From: Enterococcus caccae ATCC BAA-1240
GTDB lineage: Bacteria; Bacillota; Bacilli; Lactobacillales; Enterococcaceae
Direction of reading: 5' to 3'
Length of the DNA: 64,000 nt
NCBI RefSeq assembly: GCF_000407145.1
Contig: NZ_KE136472.1
Coordinates: 248,001-312,000, forward strand
The position numbers and the translations under genes were made by a program. This document shows positions 20,388-31,722 of the stretch, in pieces. Under the pieces are notes generated by a model. The model searched no databases. It was not told where the DNA came from and saw only the letters and a program-made list of their open reading frames with translations. Each line of letters opens with the position of its first letter. The first letter of the stretch is position 1.

Positions 20388-20903
20388 ATGGTTGTTTTTA
20401 TTGCAGGGATAACGGGCGTTTTGATTGGAGCAGTTATTGTATCAGTAGGTGTAGCTTTACGCGTAACCTATGAAGAACGTAAATCGGTACGTTATCGAGA
20501 GTTAGAAAACTTTGTTAAGGAAATAGAGACACTGAATTTGTTGAATAAAAAAATCAATGAGATTTTACAAAAAAGAGATATTTATGTAGATAAATCAGTG
20601 AACTTTATTTCAATGGATGATTGTTATATCAGTATTGATGATTTTATTTATCTAGAATCATTTTCGGCTCAAAATAATTTTTATTTGCCTACATATTTGA
20701 TTGAAGAGTTTTTCAAGAAAATTGCACACAGAAAAGTCATTTTAACACCAGATGAAGTAATTTCAATGGGCGGTAGTACGTATAAAGGCGGTCGTGTTAT
20801 CTTAGAAAGCTTTTCTGAAGAGTTACTTTCTATCATTGAAGACAAGAAAAGACAAATGAAGCGTTTAACACATAAACCGTTATATTATTTTCAAAGAGGT
20901 TAA
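20388..20903 (+). CDS. Hypothetical membrane-anchored protein, 171 aa
   Basis: I do not recognise a named family. Residues 1-26 form a hydrophobic anchor (VFIAGITGVLIGAVIVSVGVAL). A charged, probably coiled-coil segment follows (about 28-65, YEERKSVRYRELENFVKEIE ... INEILQKRD), and then a mixed soluble domain of about 100 residues. With a single N-terminal anchor the main domain may be cytosolic. It has its own promoter and terminator, so it is monocistronic. It is divergent from clpP with 226 bases between, and the ilv operon starts downstream. The context gives no functional clue. Confidence 0.8.
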   Translation: MVVFIAGITGVLIGAVIVSVGVALRVTYEERKSVRYRELENFVKEIETLNLLNKKINEILQKRDIYVDKSVNFISMDDCYISIDDFIYLESFSAQNNFYLPTYLIEEFFKKIAHRKVILTPDEVISMGGSTYKGGRVILESFSEELLSIIEDKKRQMKRLTHKPLYYFQRG

Positions 20904-20908
20904 ATCTA

Positions 20909-20943
20909 ACTGTCCCTCCAATTATTTGGAGGGGCTGTTTTTT
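20909..20943 (+). terminator. Terminator after the 171-aa gene
   Basis: An imperfect stem (20909-20922 with 20927-20937) built on CCCTCCAA/TTGGAGGG, followed by seven T. Confidence 0.85.
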
Positions 20944-20991: not shown

Positions 20992-21006
20992 AATTTTCTG
21001 AATCTT
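20992..21006 (+). promoter_or_regulatory. CodY-like box upstream of the ilv promoter
   Basis: AATTTTCTGAATCTT matches the CodY consensus AATTTTCWGAAAATT at 13 of 15 positions. It ends 14 bases before the ilv -35 hexamer. CodY represses branched-chain amino-acid synthesis genes in Firmicutes when isoleucine and GTP are plentiful. Confidence 0.6.
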
Positions 21007-21020
21007 TTTATCAAATTTTA

Positions 21021-21049
21021 TTGACATTCTCATTTTTTAGGTTTATAGT
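21021..21049 (+). promoter_or_regulatory. ilv operon promoter
   Basis: Consensus TTGACA (21021-21026), a 17-base spacer, then TATAGT (21044-21049). A perfect 16-base palindrome (21051-21066) follows and spans the expected transcription start. Confidence 0.85.
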
Positions 21050-21120
21050 TAACAAAAGCTTTTGTTTATCACATGATATTTTAATCTTTATAGATTTTTT
21101 GGAAAAAGGAGACCATTGCC

Positions 21121-21177
21121 ATGAAAAAGACAAACAACAATCACGTATTAGTCATTATTTTATCGTGTAGGACTTAG
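21121..21177 (+). CDS. ilv operon leader peptide (attenuator peptide)
   Basis: An 18-codon frame, MKKTNNNHVLVIILSCRT, starts at ATG 21121 after an AAAAGGAGA ribosome site and ends at TAG 21175-21177. Six consecutive codons encode Val, Leu, Val, Ile, Ile and Leu, as expected of a peptide whose translation senses charged branched-chain tRNAs. It lies between the ilv promoter and an intrinsic terminator upstream of ilvD. Bases within its coding sequence can pair with the downstream leader. It is too short for standard gene callers. The function is inferred from this arrangement and from known ilv/leu leaders. Confidence 0.85.
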   Translation: MKKTNNNHVLVIILSCRT

Positions 21178-21274
21178 AACACTGAGAAATTTCGCAGATG
21201 TTTGAGTCCTGTTTGTCTTTGGTAGATGGGGTTCTTACTAAGACATCCCATTTAATTGATGGGGTGTTTTTTTT
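21126..21274 (+). promoter_or_regulatory. ilv transcription attenuator
   Basis: Alternative pairings are visible. AAAGACAAAC (21126-21135) is perfectly complementary to 21211-21220. AGGACT and the bases following it (21169-21181) pair with 21199-21210. ATGGGGT (21226-21232) can pair with 21245-21251 as an antiterminator. The terminator is 21243-21251 with 21259-21267, followed by eight or more T. A ribosome stalled on the Val/Leu/Ile codons would prevent the first pairing and so could shift the fold. Which conformer forms when is inferred, not shown. Confidence 0.75.
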
Positions 21275-21372
21275 GTAGAAAGAGCTGTAAAGAAACAAAA
21301 GGAATAAAGAAAAAAATCATAAGAAAAATAAATATGTTCTTTTGATGATAACAGAATTGGAGTGGATGAAAA

Positions 21373-23064
21373 ATGCGTAGTGACCAAATCAAAAAGGGGA
21401 TAGAAGCTGCCCCGGCTAGAAGTTTGCTTTATGCAACTGGACAGGTAAAAAATGCTAAAGATATGAACAAACCATTTATTGCAATTTGCAATTCTTATAT
21501 CGATATTGTTCCAGGTCATGTGCATTTAAGAGAGCTGGCTGATGTCGCAAAAGAAGCGATCCGTGAAGCAGGAGGTATTCCTTTTGAATTCAATACGATC
21601 GGTGTTGATGATGGCATTGCTATGGGACATATCGGTATGCGTTATTCATTGCCAAGCAGAGAAATCATTGCGGATGCTGCAGAAACTGTGATTAATGCTC
21701 ATTGGTTCGATGGTGTTTTTTACATTCCAAACTGTGACAAAATTACTCCAGGAATGTTGATGGCTAGTGTTCGAACCAATGTTCCAGCAATTTTTTGTTC
21801 TGGTGGACCGATGAAAGCAGGTGTTGATCCAAGAGGACATACCACGACATTATCGAACATGTTTGAAGCAGTTGGTACCTTTAAAGAAGGCAAAATGACT
21901 GAGGAAGAATTTAATTTTATGGAACAAAATGCTTGTCCGACTTGTGGGTCATGTGCTGGCATGTTTACTGCCAATTCTATGAATTGTTTGATGGAAGTAT
22001 TAGGAATGGCTCTTCCTGGAAATGGCACGATTTTAGCAGTATCAGATGAACGTAGAGAATTGGTTAGACAATCTGCTTTTCATTTAATGGATCTAGTTAA
22101 AAAACAAATCAAACCAAGAGATATTATTACGAAAGAAGCTATTGATGATGCTTTTGCATTAGATATGGCAATGGGCGGTTCTACAAATACTGTATTGCAT
22201 ACTTTAGCAATTGCTAATGAAGCTGAGATTGATTATAACCTGGAAGAAGTTAATGCAATTGCGGAGCGCGTTCCCTATCTTTCTAAAATAGCGCCATCAT
22301 CTGCGTATTCAATGCATGATGTTCATGAAGCTGGAGGTGTTCCAGCTATTATGAAAGAACTGGTTGATTTAGGAGACGCGATTCATCCAGACCGAATTAC
22401 CGTTACTGGGAAAACAATTCGGGAAAATGTTCAGGATGCAGTGATCAAAAATGAAGAAGTTATTCATCCAAAAGAAAATCCGTATAGCCCGGTTGGCGGC
22501 TTATCGATCCTTTATGGAAATATTGCACCAAAAGGCAGTGTCATCAAAGTTGGCGGAGTGGACCCTTCAATTAAAAAATTTGTAGGTAAAGCGATTTGCT
22601 TCAGTTCTCATGATGAAGCCGTAGCTGCAATCGATGATCATACTGTCAAAAAAGGGCATGTTGTCGTGATTCGTTATGAAGGACCAAAAGGTGGTCCAGG
22701 CATGCCTGAAATGCTTGCTCCAACATCAAGTATTGTGGGCCGTGGTTTAGGGAAAGACGTTGCTTTGATTACGGATGGTCGTTTTTCAGGCGCAACACGA
22801 GGAATTGCTGTAGGACATATTTCACCAGAAGCTGCTGCGGGTGGTCCAATCGCATTAGTTAGAGACGGTGATGAAATCGAAATTGATTTAATAAACCGAA
22901 CGTTAGAATTACATGTGTCTGATGAAGAATTGGCAAAAAGAAATGACCAATTGCCGCAATTCAAAGCGAAGGTGAAAACAGGATACCTAGCTCGTTATAC
23001 GGCATTAGTGACTTCAGCACATACAGGAGGAATCATGCAGATTCCAGAAGATTTGCTAGACTAG
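21373..23064 (+). CDS. ilvD: Dihydroxy-acid dehydratase
   Basis: A 563-residue enzyme that dehydrates 2,3-dihydroxy-isovalerate and 2,3-dihydroxy-3-methylvalerate, the third common step of valine and isoleucine synthesis. Iron-sulfur region cysteines are visible at 121 ([15 protein letters not shown]) and in the cluster [19 protein letters not shown] (188-194). The VDDGIAMGH and [15 protein letters not shown] motifs are intact and the length is normal. ATG 21373 is the first gene start after the attenuator. ilvB follows after 13 bases, so the operon order is ilvD-B-N-C. From general knowledge E. faecalis lacks these genes. Confidence 0.96.
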
Positions 23065-23077
23065 AGGAGGGAAGCTC

Positions 23078-24772
23078 ATGGCAGAACAACAGAGAAAAAT
23101 GAAAAATGGTTCAAAAATTTTGATTGATGCGTTGTTGAAGCAACAGGTAGAAATGATTTTTGGTTATCCCGGTGGAGCAGTTCTTCCTTTATATGATGCC
23201 TTGTATGACGGTGATATTCCTCATATCTTGACTCGCCATGAACAAGGAGCCGTTCATGCGGCAGAAGGTTACGCCAAAGCGACTGGTAAACCTGGCGTTG
23301 TGATTGTAACAAGTGGACCTGGTGCTACAAATGCGATCACAGGCATTGCAGATGCGATGAGCGATTCGATTCCATTGGTTGTTTTCACAGGTCAAGTGAT
23401 TACGGATGGTATTGGAAAGGATGCGTTTCAAGAGGCAGATGTGATTGGATTGACGATGCCGATTACTAAAAATAATTATCAAGTTCGAGAGACTAAAGAA
23501 CTACCAAGAATTATAGAAGAGGCCTTTCACATCGCAACAACGGGTAGAAAAGGACCTGTTGTAATCGATTTGCCAAAAGACATAACGATAATGGAAACGG
23601 ACGTAGAAACTGATGTAAAGTTGAACTTGCCAAGCTATCAGCCAACCGTAAAACCAAACAAACTTCAAGTAAAAAAACTCATGGAGGCTCTAACTAAGGC
23701 TAAAAAACCTTTAGTATTGGTTGGTGCAGGTGTTTTACATGCGGATGCTGGTAAAGAATTAGTAGAATTTATTAATAGATACCAAGTGCCAGCATTGAGT
23801 TCTTTACTAGGATTAGGGGCTGTTCCGACTGACAATGAATTATTCTTAGGAATGGGTGGAATGCATGGCTCATTTGCAGCTAACATGGCATTGACAGATT
23901 GCGATTTGCTAATCAATATTGGTTCTCGTTTTGATGATCGATTAGCCAGTGCACCAAAAGAATTTGCTTCAAATGCAATTATTGCCCATGTGGATATTGA
24001 CCCAGCAGAAATCGGTAAAATTATAGATACTCAAATTCCGATCGTGGCCGATGCCAAAGAGACCTTAAAAGAAATGCTGAAAATTGACGCAGAATGTATC
24101 GATACAACTGATTGGAAAAAACTAAATCTTTCCAGAAAAAGATTACATCCGTTCAAATATGATAATGAACAAAGCGTGGAAATCAAACCTCAGAAAGTAA
24201 TTGAGTTCATTGGGGAGTTGACTAACGGAGAAGCGATTGTAGCAACGGATGTAGGTCAGCACCAAATGTGGGCAGCGCAGTTTTATCCATTTAAAAATGA
24301 GAAGCAACTAATAACAAGTGGTGGACTAGGGACAATGGGCTACGGTGTTCCTGCTGCAATCGGTGCAAAACTGGGCTGTCCAGAGAAAGAAGTCGTTCTT
24401 TTTGTTGGTGATGGTGGATTCCAAATGACAAATCAAGAATTAGCTATTTTAAATATTTATAATATTCCAATCAAAATCGTGATTTTAAACAATCAATCTT
24501 TAGGAATGGTTCGCCAATGGCAGGAAAGTTTTTTCAATGAGCGCCGTTCAGAATCAGTTTTCGAAACTCAGCCGGACTTTGTAAAAATGGCAGAAGCCTA
24601 TCATATCAAAGGTGTTAGACTTGAGGATCCAGCAACTGTTGAGTCGGACTTGGTGGAAGCTTTTAAGGAAACTGGTCCCATTTTGATTGAAGTGATGGTT
24701 TCACCGACGGAACATGTATTACCGATGGTTCCTGCGGGAAAAGCAAATTATCAGATGCTGGGGGTGGACTAA
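23078..24772 (+). CDS. ilvB: Acetolactate synthase, large (catalytic) subunit
   Basis: A 564-residue thiamine-diphosphate enzyme that condenses pyruvate with pyruvate or 2-ketobutyrate. It shows the catalytic Glu motif (TRHEQGAVHAAEGYAKATGK), the RFDDR segment of the FAD-binding middle domain, and the ThDP motif VGDGGFQMTNQELAILN. Pairing with ilvN directly downstream marks it as the biosynthetic, feedback-regulated form rather than the catabolic AlsS type. The start follows AGAGGAGGG. The stop is separated from ilvN by one base. Confidence 0.96.
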   Translation: MAEQQRKMKNGSKILIDALLKQQVEMIFGYPGGAVLPLYDALYDGDIPHILTRHEQGAVHAAEGYAKATGKPGVVIVTSGPGATNAITGIADAMSDSIPLVVFTGQVITDGIGKDAFQEADVIGLTMPITKNNYQVRETKELPRIIEEAFHIATTGRKGPVVIDLPKDITIMETDVETDVKLNLPSYQPTVKPNKLQVKKLMEALTKAKKPLVLVGAGVLHADAGKELVEFINRYQVPALSSLLGLGAVPTDNELFLGMGGMHGSFAANMALTDCDLLINIGSRFDDRLASAPKEFASNAIIAHVDIDPAEIGKIIDTQIPIVADAKETLKEMLKIDAECIDTTDWKKLNLSRKRLHPFKYDNEQSVEIKPQKVIEFIGELTNGEAIVATDVGQHQMWAAQFYPFKNEKQLITSGGLGTMGYGVPAAIGAKLGCPEKEVVLFVGDGGFQMTNQELAILNIYNIPIKIVILNNQSLGMVRQWQESFFNERRSESVFETQPDFVKMAEAYHIKGVRLEDPATVESDLVEAFKETGPILIEVMVSPTEHVLPMVPAGKANYQMLGVD

Positions 24773-24773
24773 G

Positions 24774-25256
24774 ATGAGACGTATCATTACCGCAACAGTC
24801 AATAATAATTCCGGTGTTCTAAATCGCTTTAGTGGAGTATTAACACGTAGGCAAGTTAATATAGACAGTATTTCTGTTGGACCAACAGAATTAGACAATG
24901 TATCACGAATCACGATTGTGGTCCAAGTCGCAGATTTGAACGAAGCAGAACAAGTGATCAAGCAATTAAATAAACAAATTGATGTAATCAAGGTCTCTGA
25001 TATTACGGATGAGCCGCATTTAGAAAGAGAATTAGCATTGGTTAAAGTAAATGCCCCCGCAGCCGTTCGAGCTGAACTATTTTCAGTGATCGATCCATTT
25101 AGAGCAAATGTTATCGATGTCGGTACACGCTCTGTAGTGATTCAAGTCACAGGTACCAGTGAAAAAATCAGTGCGTTCGTTGATGTTGTTGCACCATATG
25201 GCATCAAACAACTAGCGCGAACAGGTGTTACAGGTTTTACTAGAGGAAACAACTAA
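24774..25256 (+). CDS. ilvN: Acetolactate synthase, small (regulatory) subunit
   Basis: A 160-residue regulatory subunit with an N-terminal ACT domain (MRRIITATVNNNSGVLNRFS) that binds valine for feedback inhibition. A C-terminal domain (VNAPAAVRAELFSVIDPFRANVIDVG) follows, and the length is standard. The longer frame from 24714 lies inside ilvB; ATG 24774 begins one base after the ilvB stop and uses a GGGGGTGG-type ribosome site within ilvB. The family symbol ilvH is also used. Confidence 0.95.
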   Translation: MRRIITATVNNNSGVLNRFSGVLTRRQVNIDSISVGPTELDNVSRITIVVQVADLNEAEQVIKQLNKQIDVIKVSDITDEPHLERELALVKVNAPAAVRAELFSVIDPFRANVIDVGTRSVVIQVTGTSEKISAFVDVVAPYGIKQLARTGVTGFTRGNN

Positions 25257-26306
<1,050 letters not shown>

Positions 26307-26321
26307 ATTAGAAACTAAACA

Positions 26322-26367
26322 AGAGGCTGAGAAACTAGCTGAATGCTTCCATCTCAGTCTCTTTTTT
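26322..26367 (+). terminator. Terminator between ilvC and ilvA
   Basis: An 11-base-pair stem (26322-26332 with 26352-26362), one wobble, a 19-base loop and seven T. It ends only 15 bases before the ilvA ribosome site. ilvA expression would then rely on readthrough or on a promoter I cannot see. Confidence 0.8.
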
Positions 26368-26396: not shown

Positions 26397-27650
26397 TTGA
26401 AACTAACAAAAGCAAAAGTTGAAGAAGCATACGATACGCTAAAAGATGTAGTAACGAAAACACCATTACAGTACGATTTGTATCTATCGCAAAAATATCA
26501 ATGCAATGTTTATTTAAAAAGAGAAGATTTACAAAAAGTTCGTTCATTCAAATTAAGAGGGGCGTATTATGCGATTAAACAAACTCCTCATGATATGTTA
26601 AAAAATGGTGTTGTTTGTGCTAGTGCAGGAAACCATGCTCAAGGAGTAGCATTTACTTGTCATGAAATGAAAGTTGCTGCTACGATTTTTATGCCAACGA
26701 CAACACCTCAACAAAAAATTTCTCAAGTAAAATTTTTTGGAGGAGATGAAGTAACTGTAAAATTGATTGGAGATACTTTTGATGCTTCTGCAAAAGCGGC
26801 CAAAGAATATGCCCAAACCAATAACCAAGCATTTATTGATCCTTTTAATGATTTAAATATTATGGCTGGGCAAGGAACTGTGGCAGTTGAAGTATTTCAA
26901 GAAGCAAAAGAATCTGAATTTCAAGTAGATTACTTATTAGCAGCAATCGGCGGTGGTGGATTAGTTAGTGGAGTTTCAACCTATACCAAAAGTGTCAGTC
27001 CTACCACAGCTGTAATTGGCGTAGAACCACTTGGTGCTCAATCAATGCGGGCTGCATTTGATGAAGGCAAACCAGTAATGCTAGATAGTGTGGAAAAATT
27101 TGTTGATGGAGCAGCAGTTAAGCAAGTTGGAAATTTAACGTATGAACACGCGCTTGAGTATGTTGATGAACTGGTGGCCGTTGATGAAGGACAAGTGTGC
27201 TCAACGATTTTAGAACTCTATACCAAACAAGCAATCGTTGTAGAACCAGCTGGTGCGTTAAGTGTCTCAGCTTTAGAGTTGATTAAAGACGATATTAGAG
27301 GGAAAAATGTGGTTTGTATCATCAGTGGAGGCAATAATGATATTAATCGTATGGAAGAAATTGAAGAACGTTCATTGATCTTTGAAGGGTTGAAACATTA
27401 TTTCGTCATAAACTTTCCTCAACGTCCAGGCGCATTGAGAGAATTTGTAACAGATATTTTAGGACCAAATGATGATATTACCCGTTTTGAATATACAAAA
27501 AAAGTTAACCGTGGTACTGGGCCAGTTGTTTTGGGAATTTTACTACAAGATAAAGAAGAACTACCGAATTTACTACAAAAAATGGTAGCATTTGATCCAA
27601 AATACATTGATCTTAGCGATAATCCATCATTGTATGCACTACTTGTTTAA
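26397..27650 (+). CDS. ilvA: Threonine dehydratase (biosynthetic)
   Basis: A 417-residue pyridoxal-phosphate enzyme converting threonine to 2-ketobutyrate, the committed step to isoleucine. The PLP lysine is in VRSFKLRGAYYAI, and the glycine loop is SAGNHAQGVAF/AIGGGGLVSG. A single C-terminal ACT-like domain (YFVINFPQRPGALREFVTDI) gives the Firmicute short form, which has a simpler isoleucine response than the two-ACT E. coli enzyme. The start is probably TTG 26397 (or the adjacent TTG 26394), following GGTGGGGAG. The upstream frame to 26343 runs through the terminator and is not credible. Confidence 0.93.
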   Translation: MKLTKAKVEEAYDTLKDVVTKTPLQYDLYLSQKYQCNVYLKREDLQKVRSFKLRGAYYAIKQTPHDMLKNGVVCASAGNHAQGVAFTCHEMKVAATIFMPTTTPQQKISQVKFFGGDEVTVKLIGDTFDASAKAAKEYAQTNNQAFIDPFNDLNIMAGQGTVAVEVFQEAKESEFQVDYLLAAIGGGGLVSGVSTYTKSVSPTTAVIGVEPLGAQSMRAAFDEGKPVMLDSVEKFVDGAAVKQVGNLTYEHALEYVDELVAVDEGQVCSTILELYTKQAIVVEPAGALSVSALELIKDDIRGKNVVCIISGGNNDINRMEEIEERSLIFEGLKHYFVINFPQRPGALREFVTDILGPNDDITRFEYTKKVNRGTGPVVLGILLQDKEELPNLLQKMVAFDPKYIDLSDNPSLYALLV

Positions 27651-30885: not shown

Positions 30886-31722
30886 TTATTTTTTGTATGA
30901 ATCTTCTGGTCTCAACTGATATATTTTTGAAGGTCGACCAATCCCTACAGGCCGTTCCCCAATCTCTTCAAAGTGATGGAGCATTGCTTTTTTAAAGTTG
31001 GAGTGATCGATCGTTTTGTAATCCACACCAGAAAACTTAGCAAAAACTTTGCGTGCTTCTGTGATTGTAAAGTCATTGCCTAAAACTTGAAGTACTTGGG
31101 GATCATGCTCCATTTTATTGGCTACTCGATTGAATGCTTTTAGAATGATTTCACTATGGTCAAAAGCTAGAGTATCTTTCCCAGTCGAAGCTCCTGTGTT
31201 GAGATCTAGAATAATTTCCACATCACCATTAGTAAGAGCTAGGATATTTTCTTTTCGATCCATTGTAAACCAGCGAACTTCTTTTGCATCATCGCCAGCT
31301 ATTAACGGCTCTTCACCAATAAAGGCTAGATAGCTAACAGTCACGACCCAGCCACGTGGATCACGATCAGGTCGGCTAAAACTATGAAGTTGTTCAATAT
31401 TATCTTTAGAAATAATTACGCCAGTTTCTTCTTGTGTCTCTCGTAGAACACTTTCTCCAGTGGATTCATTTCGATTTACAAACCCACCAGGTAAAGCCCA
31501 TGAATTTTGATAGGGATGACCTTTTCTTTTGATTAGTAGGATTTTTAATTGATCTTCTTCTTTGTTATAGCACATCAATACAATATCTACAGTCAGAGAA
31601 GGTTTTTCGTATTCAGGAAGTTCTTGTTGATGGTACCATGTCAAAAACTTAGCTTCATCCGCTTGTTGTTCGTAATATTGTTTTTCTTCTTCCTTAGAAT
31701 TAAAGTATGTCAAGTTATTCAT
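30886..31722 (-). CDS. Nudix-domain regulator with winged helix (NrtR-like)
   Basis: A 278-residue protein. Residues about 42-185 are a Nudix domain with a complete Nudix box at 80-102 (GGFVNRNESTGESVLRETQE then ETGV). Residues about 205-275 form a winged-helix DNA-binding domain (NDFTITEARKVFAKFSGVDY ... GIGRPSKIYQL). This layout is that of NrtR, a repressor of NAD synthesis and salvage genes that senses ADP-ribose. The box being intact means enzymatic activity is possible. The ATG at 31722 directly abuts its GAGAGG site; a TTG three codons on (31713) is better spaced and may be the true start. Confidence 0.8.
   Translation of the reverse strand: MNNLTYFNSKEEEKQYYEQQADEAKFLTWYHQQELPEYEKPSLTVDIVLMCYNKEEDQLKILLIKRKGHPYQNSWALPGGFVNRNESTGESVLRETQEETGVIISKDNIEQLHSFSRPDRDPRGWVVTVSYLAFIGEEPLIAGDDAKEVRWFTMDRKENILALTNGDVEIILDLNTGASTGKDTLAFDHSEIILKAFNRVANKMEHDPQVLQVLGNDFTITEARKVFAKFSGVDYKTIDHSNFKKAMLHHFEEIGERPVGIGRPSKIYQLRPEDSYKK

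Follow-up and report, generated by a model that had tools for sequence, protein, structure and literature searches.

We conclude that the element upstream of ilvD in the window (the whole stretch analysed, 64,000 nucleotides of Enterococcus caccae ATCC BAA-1240) is, with high probability, a ribosome-mediated transcription attenuator of ilvDBNCA, homologous to Rli60 of Listeria. A broader proposition we hold with only moderate confidence: that this leader is one member of a single homologous family of retargetable leader-peptide attenuators, found in the order of Enterococcus with its Listeria-like genomes and in the staphylococci. T-boxes control amino acid genes in cis by antitermination, with a specificity set by a codon, and pair directly with tRNA without a ribosome. 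The proposed family would be their ribosome-read counterpart. A fixed chassis of hairpin, antiterminator and terminator would be combined with a run of codons fitted to the gene behind it: Leu for leuA; Ile, Val and Leu for ilvD and ilvB; Ile for ridA, ilvE and BASS-type transporter genes; and Ile, Leu or Val for livJ-type genes.

All of the features described below lie on the forward strand. The leader peptide ORF, MKKTNNNHVLVIILSCRT, read from the sequence at 21121–21177, has 18 codons and ends with the stop codon TAG (21175–21177); its Shine-Dalgarno sequence, AGGAG, occupies 21107–21111. Within it are the six consecutive sensor codons that the preliminary description had picked out, Val-Leu-Val-Ile-Ile-Leu (GTA TTA GTC ATT ATT TTA, 21145–21162). 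Transcription would start from a predicted sigma-70-type promoter, TTGACA-17-TATAGT (21021–21049; 11 of 12 matches). This was the best of four promoter-like sites found in a scan in which shuffled sequences give 2.2 expected, so that the number of such sites in the region is barely above chance.

Downstream, four segments can be paired in alternative ways. Segment 1, the 5′ strand of the protector (21106–21135), comprises the Shine-Dalgarno region and the first codons. It includes the perfect 10-base match noted earlier: AAAGACAAAC (21126–21135) is the exact reverse complement of A′, GTTTGTCTTT (21211–21220). This match proves to be part of a longer protector, for the leader's own Shine-Dalgarno region also pairs with the antiterminator strand. 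Hairpin B (21169–21210) is formed by AGGACTTAGA (21169–21178) and TTTGAGTCCT (21201–21210), the stop codon lying within its 5′ strand. Segment 2, GATGGGGTTCTT (21225–21236), is the 5′ strand of the antiterminator and pairs with segment 1 too. Segment 3, AAGACATCCCAT (21240–21251), serves either as the 5′ arm of the terminator or as the 3′ strand of the antiterminator, and segment 4 (21259–21274) contains the 3′ arm of the terminator and the U-run. The intrinsic terminator expected after the peptide is thus present, as a terminator-like stem at 21240–21270 with a U-run to 21274. It is one of two such sites found by a scan (0.2 expected); the other, at 20912–20935, is directly behind the gene upstream of the leader. 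The RNA 21056–21275 folds at −60.9 kcal/mol (z −4.68), and none of 200 shuffles was as stable. Nowhere in the window did any Rfam family reach its gathering score. An ORF upstream of the leader (20388–20903, 171 residues) has no NCBIfam or Pfam match; the closest named species keep its DNA ahead of their ilvD.

How might these segments exchange partners? When the Ile-, Val- and Leu-tRNAs are charged and plentiful, the ribosome would traverse the leader peptide and depart. Hairpin B would then close across the stop codon, and segment 1 would be bound to A′ and to segment 2, leaving segment 3 free to join segment 4 as the terminator. When those tRNAs are scarce, the ribosome would stall at the branched-chain amino acid (BCAA) codons and cover the first codons. 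Segment 2 would then pair with segment 3, the terminator would be blocked and transcription would reach ilvD.

The operon behind the leader begins with ilvD (dihydroxy-acid dehydratase, 21373–23064; TIGR00110, 791.5 bits), which is 86% identical to ilvD of E. crotali, E. ureasiticus and E. quebecensis. It continues with ilvB (acetolactate synthase large subunit, 23078–24772; TIGR00118, 787.8 bits), ilvN/ilvH (acetolactate synthase small subunit, 24774–25256; NF008864, 200.5 bits), ilvC (ketol-acid reductoisomerase, 25311–26306; NF004017, 559.2 bits) and ilvA (threonine ammonia-lyase, 26397–27650 with a predicted start, the first ATG of the ORF being at 26343; NF006390, 648.5 bits). The leader ORF, translatable as predicted from its sequence, therefore carries its regulatory codons ahead of the matching biosynthetic operon. 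Immediately upstream of the −35 element is a candidate CodY-box-like site, AATTTTCTGAATCTT (20992–21006). It agrees at 13 of 15 positions with AATTTTCWGAAAATT, which we take to be the CodY-box consensus and against which candidate sites were scored. Scored against this consensus, the best site upstream of the leader reaches 13–14 of 15 in 53 of 66 relatives; mononucleotide shuffles attain 13 of 15 in 0.8% of cases. A CodY-like site at the promoter, to which CodY may bind, suggests a second, global layer of control, as in Listeria.

If the leader peptide is read by ribosomes, is it kept in related bacteria? Among 105 genomes of the Enterococcaceae a search with IlvD matched 70; in 66 of these the identity is at least 80% over nearly the whole length, the other four containing only a paralogue of 43–45% identity. 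(One ilvD, G070:C9:70337–72015, is split into two pieces that overlap, through either a frameshift or a fault of assembly.) We read the upstream regions of all 66 genes, that of L051 only as far as 358 bases. A BCAA-rich leader peptide is kept in 66 of 66. The preliminary description had considered such a leader unusual in an enterococcus; it is instead the norm of the family. All six of the best six residues are Ile, Leu or Val in 59 leaders and five of the six in the remaining 7. A stricter scan with a Shine-Dalgarno filter recovered 65, missing L059 because its Shine-Dalgarno sequence is GGGGA. All 66 leaders differ from one another. By contrast, a scan upstream of all ten IlvD paralogues of 43–45% identity found no leader of their own; the single match, near the paralogue L074, was rejected, since it is the leader of the main ilvD, which adjoins that paralogue divergently.

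In 57 of the 66 leaders the GGACU (or GGGCU) of hairpin B begins five bases ahead of the stop codon. The remaining nine (L013, L017, L025, L033, L036, L039, L042, L050 and L051) have an ORF that stops before or at the AGGAC strand, yet they retain the GGAC motif. The hairpin is thus kept as RNA, and the tail of the peptide is separable from it. The common peptide ending, Arg-Thr-stop, probably reflects this RNA pairing and not a function of the peptide.

Do the alternative pairings themselves coevolve? In the alignment of these leaders (A1), 96.3% of the cells of hairpin B and the terminator are paired. Nine pairs are changed on both sides, against 4.3 in shuffles, and 41 cells are so changed, against 9.1, a count reached in none of 500 shuffles; slid controls were far lower. 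The outer pairs of hairpin B are almost invariant, while its inner pairs covary. Since the register of the protector shifts between genera, we tested it without an alignment. The duplex formed by each leader's own segment 1 with its strand of A′ and segment 2 has a mean of −19.8 kcal/mol over the 66, against −13.6 kcal/mol for cross-genus swaps, and is better than 90% of such swaps in 49 of 66. For the terminator the corresponding values are −19.9 and −16.4 kcal/mol, 40 of 66 beating 90% of swaps. The antiterminator behaves differently. Within the Enterococcaceae it shows no covariation beyond shuffles (413 of 500 were as high); its core is invariant, 91.5% of cells are paired, and strands exchanged between genera bind as well as its own (−12.2 against −12.3 kcal/mol; the own duplex beats 90% of swaps in 8 of 66). 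Such invariance would be expected if each strand must suit two partners, and is by itself no evidence. The compensatory conservation predicted earlier therefore holds for hairpin B, the terminator and the protector; the antiterminator shows no covariation inside the Enterococcaceae, and does so only in the wider family described below.

We simulated the ribosome with a crude equilibrium model without kinetics, in which 30 bases around the ribosome are masked and the RNA ends just past segment 3. In the window the probability of the antiterminator is 0.57–0.81 with the A-site at codons 2–11, 0.19 at codon 12 and 0.175 from codon 13 onward, which is the value obtained with no ribosome. The modelled fall occurs within the BCAA run. 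Over the 66 leaders the mean is 0.85 with the A-site at codon 2, 0.69 at the first BCAA codon and 0.33 at the stop codon; on the run as a whole it is 0.54, against 0.49 without a ribosome. The modelled probability on the run exceeds both the stop and the no-ribosome values in only 39 of 66 leaders. It exceeds the no-ribosome value by more than 0.3 in only 3 of 66, and the stop value by that margin in 16 of 66. The masking model thus supports a switch in the window, and across the 66 relatives only weakly. The conservation and covariation support the ribosome-stalling control of the ilv operon put forward in the preliminary description.

To look beyond the Enterococcaceae we used covariance models. 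The first, R1, contains hairpin B and the terminator with no more than four bases ahead of the hairpin, so that it carries next to nothing of the ORF. At E 0.01 it found 145 of 395 genomes in the order and 42 of 398 in the class. Forty R1-matching loci beyond the 66 were read, picked to cover second copies and other families. The second model, R2, was built on 70 members: 24 of the 66, those 40 and six staphylococcus-like loci. At E 0.001 its matches covered 180 of 395 genomes in the order, from 36 of 80 genera, and 55 of 398 in the class, from 10 of 145. In a sample of the phylum it found 2 of 279, the genome of the window itself and another from the same order, and nothing beyond that order. 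These samples overlap, and the filters used in large searches lose weak matches. R2 also gave weak scores in the window, 22.9 bits on the strand opposite the leader and 17.6, 17.5 and 15.9 bits at other places (E 0.02–0.5), all of which we ascribe to chance.

Of the 30 class matches of R2 outside the order, 29 fall in one genus, f17/g93. Two of its loci (L142, L143) have as leader a 26-residue peptide with IIILL and three more Leu. We take this genus to be Staphylococcus, because its leader fits the description of that of S. aureus and because L190 scores 91.1 bits as rli60. Likewise the genus f7/g23 is taken for Listeria, because L191 scores 169.9 bits as rli60 and has a peptide of 13 residues, as reported for Rli60. 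The other 11 of the 13 loci compared with Rfam matched no family at E 0.05. Among named records, the core pattern was matched in 30 of 30 stretches by Enterococcus, the records nearest the window possibly having been left out.

In the alignment of the 70 members (A4; 69 distinct rows), made with the model itself so that the helix counts lean towards it, 162 cells of the two helices are changed on both sides, against 32.8 in shuffles (none of 500 as high). The antiterminator is outside the structure of the model and leans less towards it. Eight of its nine pairs are changed on both sides, as are 46 cells, against 12.1 in shuffles (again none of 500), and 83.6% of its cells are paired. Its own duplex has a mean of −11.5 kcal/mol over the 70 members, against −5.4 kcal/mol when shuffled, and is within the best 5% of shuffles in 58 of 70. 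Against strands swapped between target classes (mean −9.0 kcal/mol), 27 of 70 beat 90% of the swaps. Protector, antiterminator and terminator are thus mutually exclusive and covary, the antiterminator doing so in the wider family though not within the Enterococcaceae alone. Whatever the target, the outer AGGAC/GUCCU pairs and the 3′ RUUYG hardly change and are conserved beyond what pairing needs, while the inner pairs covary; a pause hairpin or a contact with the ribosome are our guesses at the cause.

What genes do these elements precede? We read 125 loci (123 distinct places; sets of 40 and 60, with 25 more from class searches), picked for diversity and hence a non-random set. The target classes were defined by one representative each with an NCBIfam match and extended with tblastn. 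The first gene is ilvD at 46 loci, leuA at 25, ilvB at 16, a BASS-type transporter gene at 14, a LivJ-type binding protein gene at 11, a branched-chain aminotransferase gene at 6, ridA at 3 and a gene for an alcohol-dehydrogenase-like oxidoreductase at 2. The remaining two are brnQ (L265; PF05525, 468.7 bits), with the leader MQTQMKAIIIVI, and an M20-family peptidase gene (L268), with the leader MFNFGILLYLIL. The BASS protein is below the PanS and BASS-subfamily cut-offs, and the LivJ-type protein and the oxidoreductase are below theirs; these are family names only.

This distribution bears on the rival that survives best, improbable as we hold it to be: that the leader is mainly a terminated, trans-acting small RNA, and that ilv is controlled by CodY alone. 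In its favour, Rfam lists rli60 among the sRNAs and there is a CodY-like site. Yet the 125 chosen loci include 104 ahead of ilvD, ilvB, leuA, ilvE or livJ-type genes and a single one ahead of brnQ; at the remaining 20 the gene is of the BASS-type, Rid-family, oxidoreductase or M20 kind. Moreover, Rli60 is reported to have regulated a lux reporter in cis in E. coli, which according to the same paper lacks CodY (PMC5864092).

Is the codon run matched to the gene? In front of leuA the run letters are Leu 0.91, Ile 0.04 and Val 0.04, and all are Leu in 17 of 25. The run is dominated by Ile ahead of BASS-type (0.82) and LivJ-type (0.85) genes, is Ile 0.73 and Val 0.27 ahead of the aminotransferase, is Ile alone (1.0) ahead of RidA and the oxidoreductase, and is mixed ahead of ilvB and ilvD. 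The share of Leu is 0.92 in 18 distinct LeuA peptides and 0.33 in 130 others (permutation p ≤ 5e-5, uncorrected for relatedness). Neighbouring paralogues may differ in their codons. One genome (G370; L295, L299) has two adjoining livJ-type genes with leaders ending SIIIII and VVVIVI; another (G107; L167, L168) has livJ-type genes with IVIIII and LLLLL leaders. L297 and L298 are also livJ-type paralogues, in a set with Ile-, Val- or Leu-coded leaders. Ile-rich leaders stand before BASS/SBF-type transporters at L172, L173, L176, L195, L245, L250, L261–L264, L266, L269, L271, L272 and L296; at L296 the BASS-type gene is followed by an oxidoreductase gene like that of L194. These leaders suggest that the BASS-type transporters may carry branched-chain 2-oxo or 2-hydroxy acids. 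After the Rid-family gene with an Ile-only leader at L163, L164 and L165, no ilvA match occurs in the stretches read. The commonest Ile, Leu or Val codons in the peptides are ATT (287) and TTA (227), and (ATT)n read one frame over is (TTA)n, so that a shift of one base could swap Ile for Leu sensing. Against this, TTG occurs in some leuA leaders, and the pattern may be mere codon bias where genomes are AT-rich.

The functions of family members other than those of Listeria and S. aureus are predictions drawn from their sequences. If retargeting is true, the codon run could be used to annotate substrate: livJ-type paralogues would be specialized for Ile, Leu or Val, and the BASS transporter would be a carrier of branched-chain 2-oxo or 2-hydroxy acids. 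The run would thus yield testable substrate predictions for uncharacterized transporters.

A second copy is found in the window's own genome. There R2 has two matches at E 0.001, the ilvD leader and C2:615637–615768 (L159; 48.1 bits; fold z −3.83), which precedes leuA and whose leader, MNKQTTTITFLLLLKDSSH, contains Leu codons. All 20 genomes drawn from the genus have two matches, and the second precedes leuA in 9 of the 9 read. The bacterium may therefore read its supply of Ile, Val and Leu for ilv, and of Leu for leu, through two copies of one device. The same genome contains 24 T-box matches (RF00230) of at least 77 bits (L077–L100), 19 of them over the Rfam cut-off; at the ilv leader site the T-box model has no match, in keeping with the earlier remark that no T-box core is present. 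It would appear that one genome can combine T-boxes with leaders read by ribosomes, the second kind governing ilvD and leuA.

Could the element nevertheless be a ligand riboswitch, or a relic tRNA sensor, in which the AGGAC/GUCCU hairpin senses and the short ORF is incidental? The conservation of the outer pairs and of RUUYG beyond pairing needs speaks for it, and we consider it slightly less probable still than the trans-acting RNA. The site has no T-box match; an incidental ORF would not keep its BCAA run in every one of the 66 relatives, nor vary its residues with the downstream gene; and mutation of the start codon or of the ribosome-binding site of Rli60 is reported to have lowered ilvD transcription under low BCAA (PMC5864092). 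A constitutive terminator with a chance ORF, for all that the terminator is strong and that AT-rich DNA yields short hydrophobic ORFs, can be dismissed as very improbable, since 118 of 125 loci have an ATG with a Shine-Dalgarno sequence and three or more Ile/Leu/Val codons in a row (six of the other seven have no Shine-Dalgarno sequence of the pattern, and in L269 the run is broken), as do only 49 of 2074 positions taken at random within these loci and 31 of 2500 on the antisense strand.

We return to the ribosome-mediated attenuator and its nearest known relative. At a relaxed threshold the best Rfam match of the window leader is rli60 (RF02414; 45.8 bits, E 2.8e-5 in a 401-base search), and the leader aligns across the full length of that model. 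It has the BCAA leader peptide upstream of ilvD that characterizes RF02414, but falls short of the gathering score of 60 bits; for this reason we call it a homologue of Rli60 and not a member of RF02414. Rli60 was examined with a reporter and with start-codon, ribosome-binding-site and terminator mutants, and was judged a ribosome-mediated attenuator (PMC5864092). It shares with the window leader the BCAA peptide, the AGGACUU…AGUCCU hairpin and the antiterminator and terminator before ilvD, and it has a CodY site where the window has its candidate. The peptides differ in length, 18 codons in the window against 13 in Listeria. The Listeria operon is ilv-leu, whereas the window's ORF list, followed to position 31000, shows no leu genes behind the ilv genes.

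The ilvD leader of S. aureus, reported as an attenuator, with suppressor mutations in peptide and terminator (PMC5794164), likewise has a BCAA leader peptide and a terminator before ilvD. The core model also finds the staphylococcus-like loci, one of which, L190, exceeds the rli60 cut-off. In the S. aureus proposal GAAUGG pairs with the U-tract of the terminator; here, by contrast, the equivalent strand pairs with the 5′ arm of the terminator, and this pairing covaries over the family. Leader peptides in Firmicutes were reported earlier for hisS (PMC2965389), and a Veillonella ilvD RNA motif has also been reported (PMC8632094). A 2018 review describes the mechanism as common for BCAA operons of Gram-positives, enterococci going unmentioned in its main text (PMC6123439). 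In the open-licence literature (titles and beginnings of abstracts, among the matches listed) we found nothing on such an enterococcal leader or on a retargeted family. The window element itself belongs to a known kind of leader; what appears new is the proposed retargeted, codon-matched family. Through it the attenuators of Listeria, S. aureus and the enterococci would be joined in one RNA family whose target genes are of eight or more kinds, every kind being represented by no fewer than two loci.

In the classical leader-peptide attenuators of Proteobacteria, such as those of ilvGMEDA and leu in E. coli, the position of the ribosome sets the choice between alternative RNA pairings. The enterococcal leader would follow the same logic. 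It differs from them in that its protector takes in the leader's own Shine-Dalgarno region.
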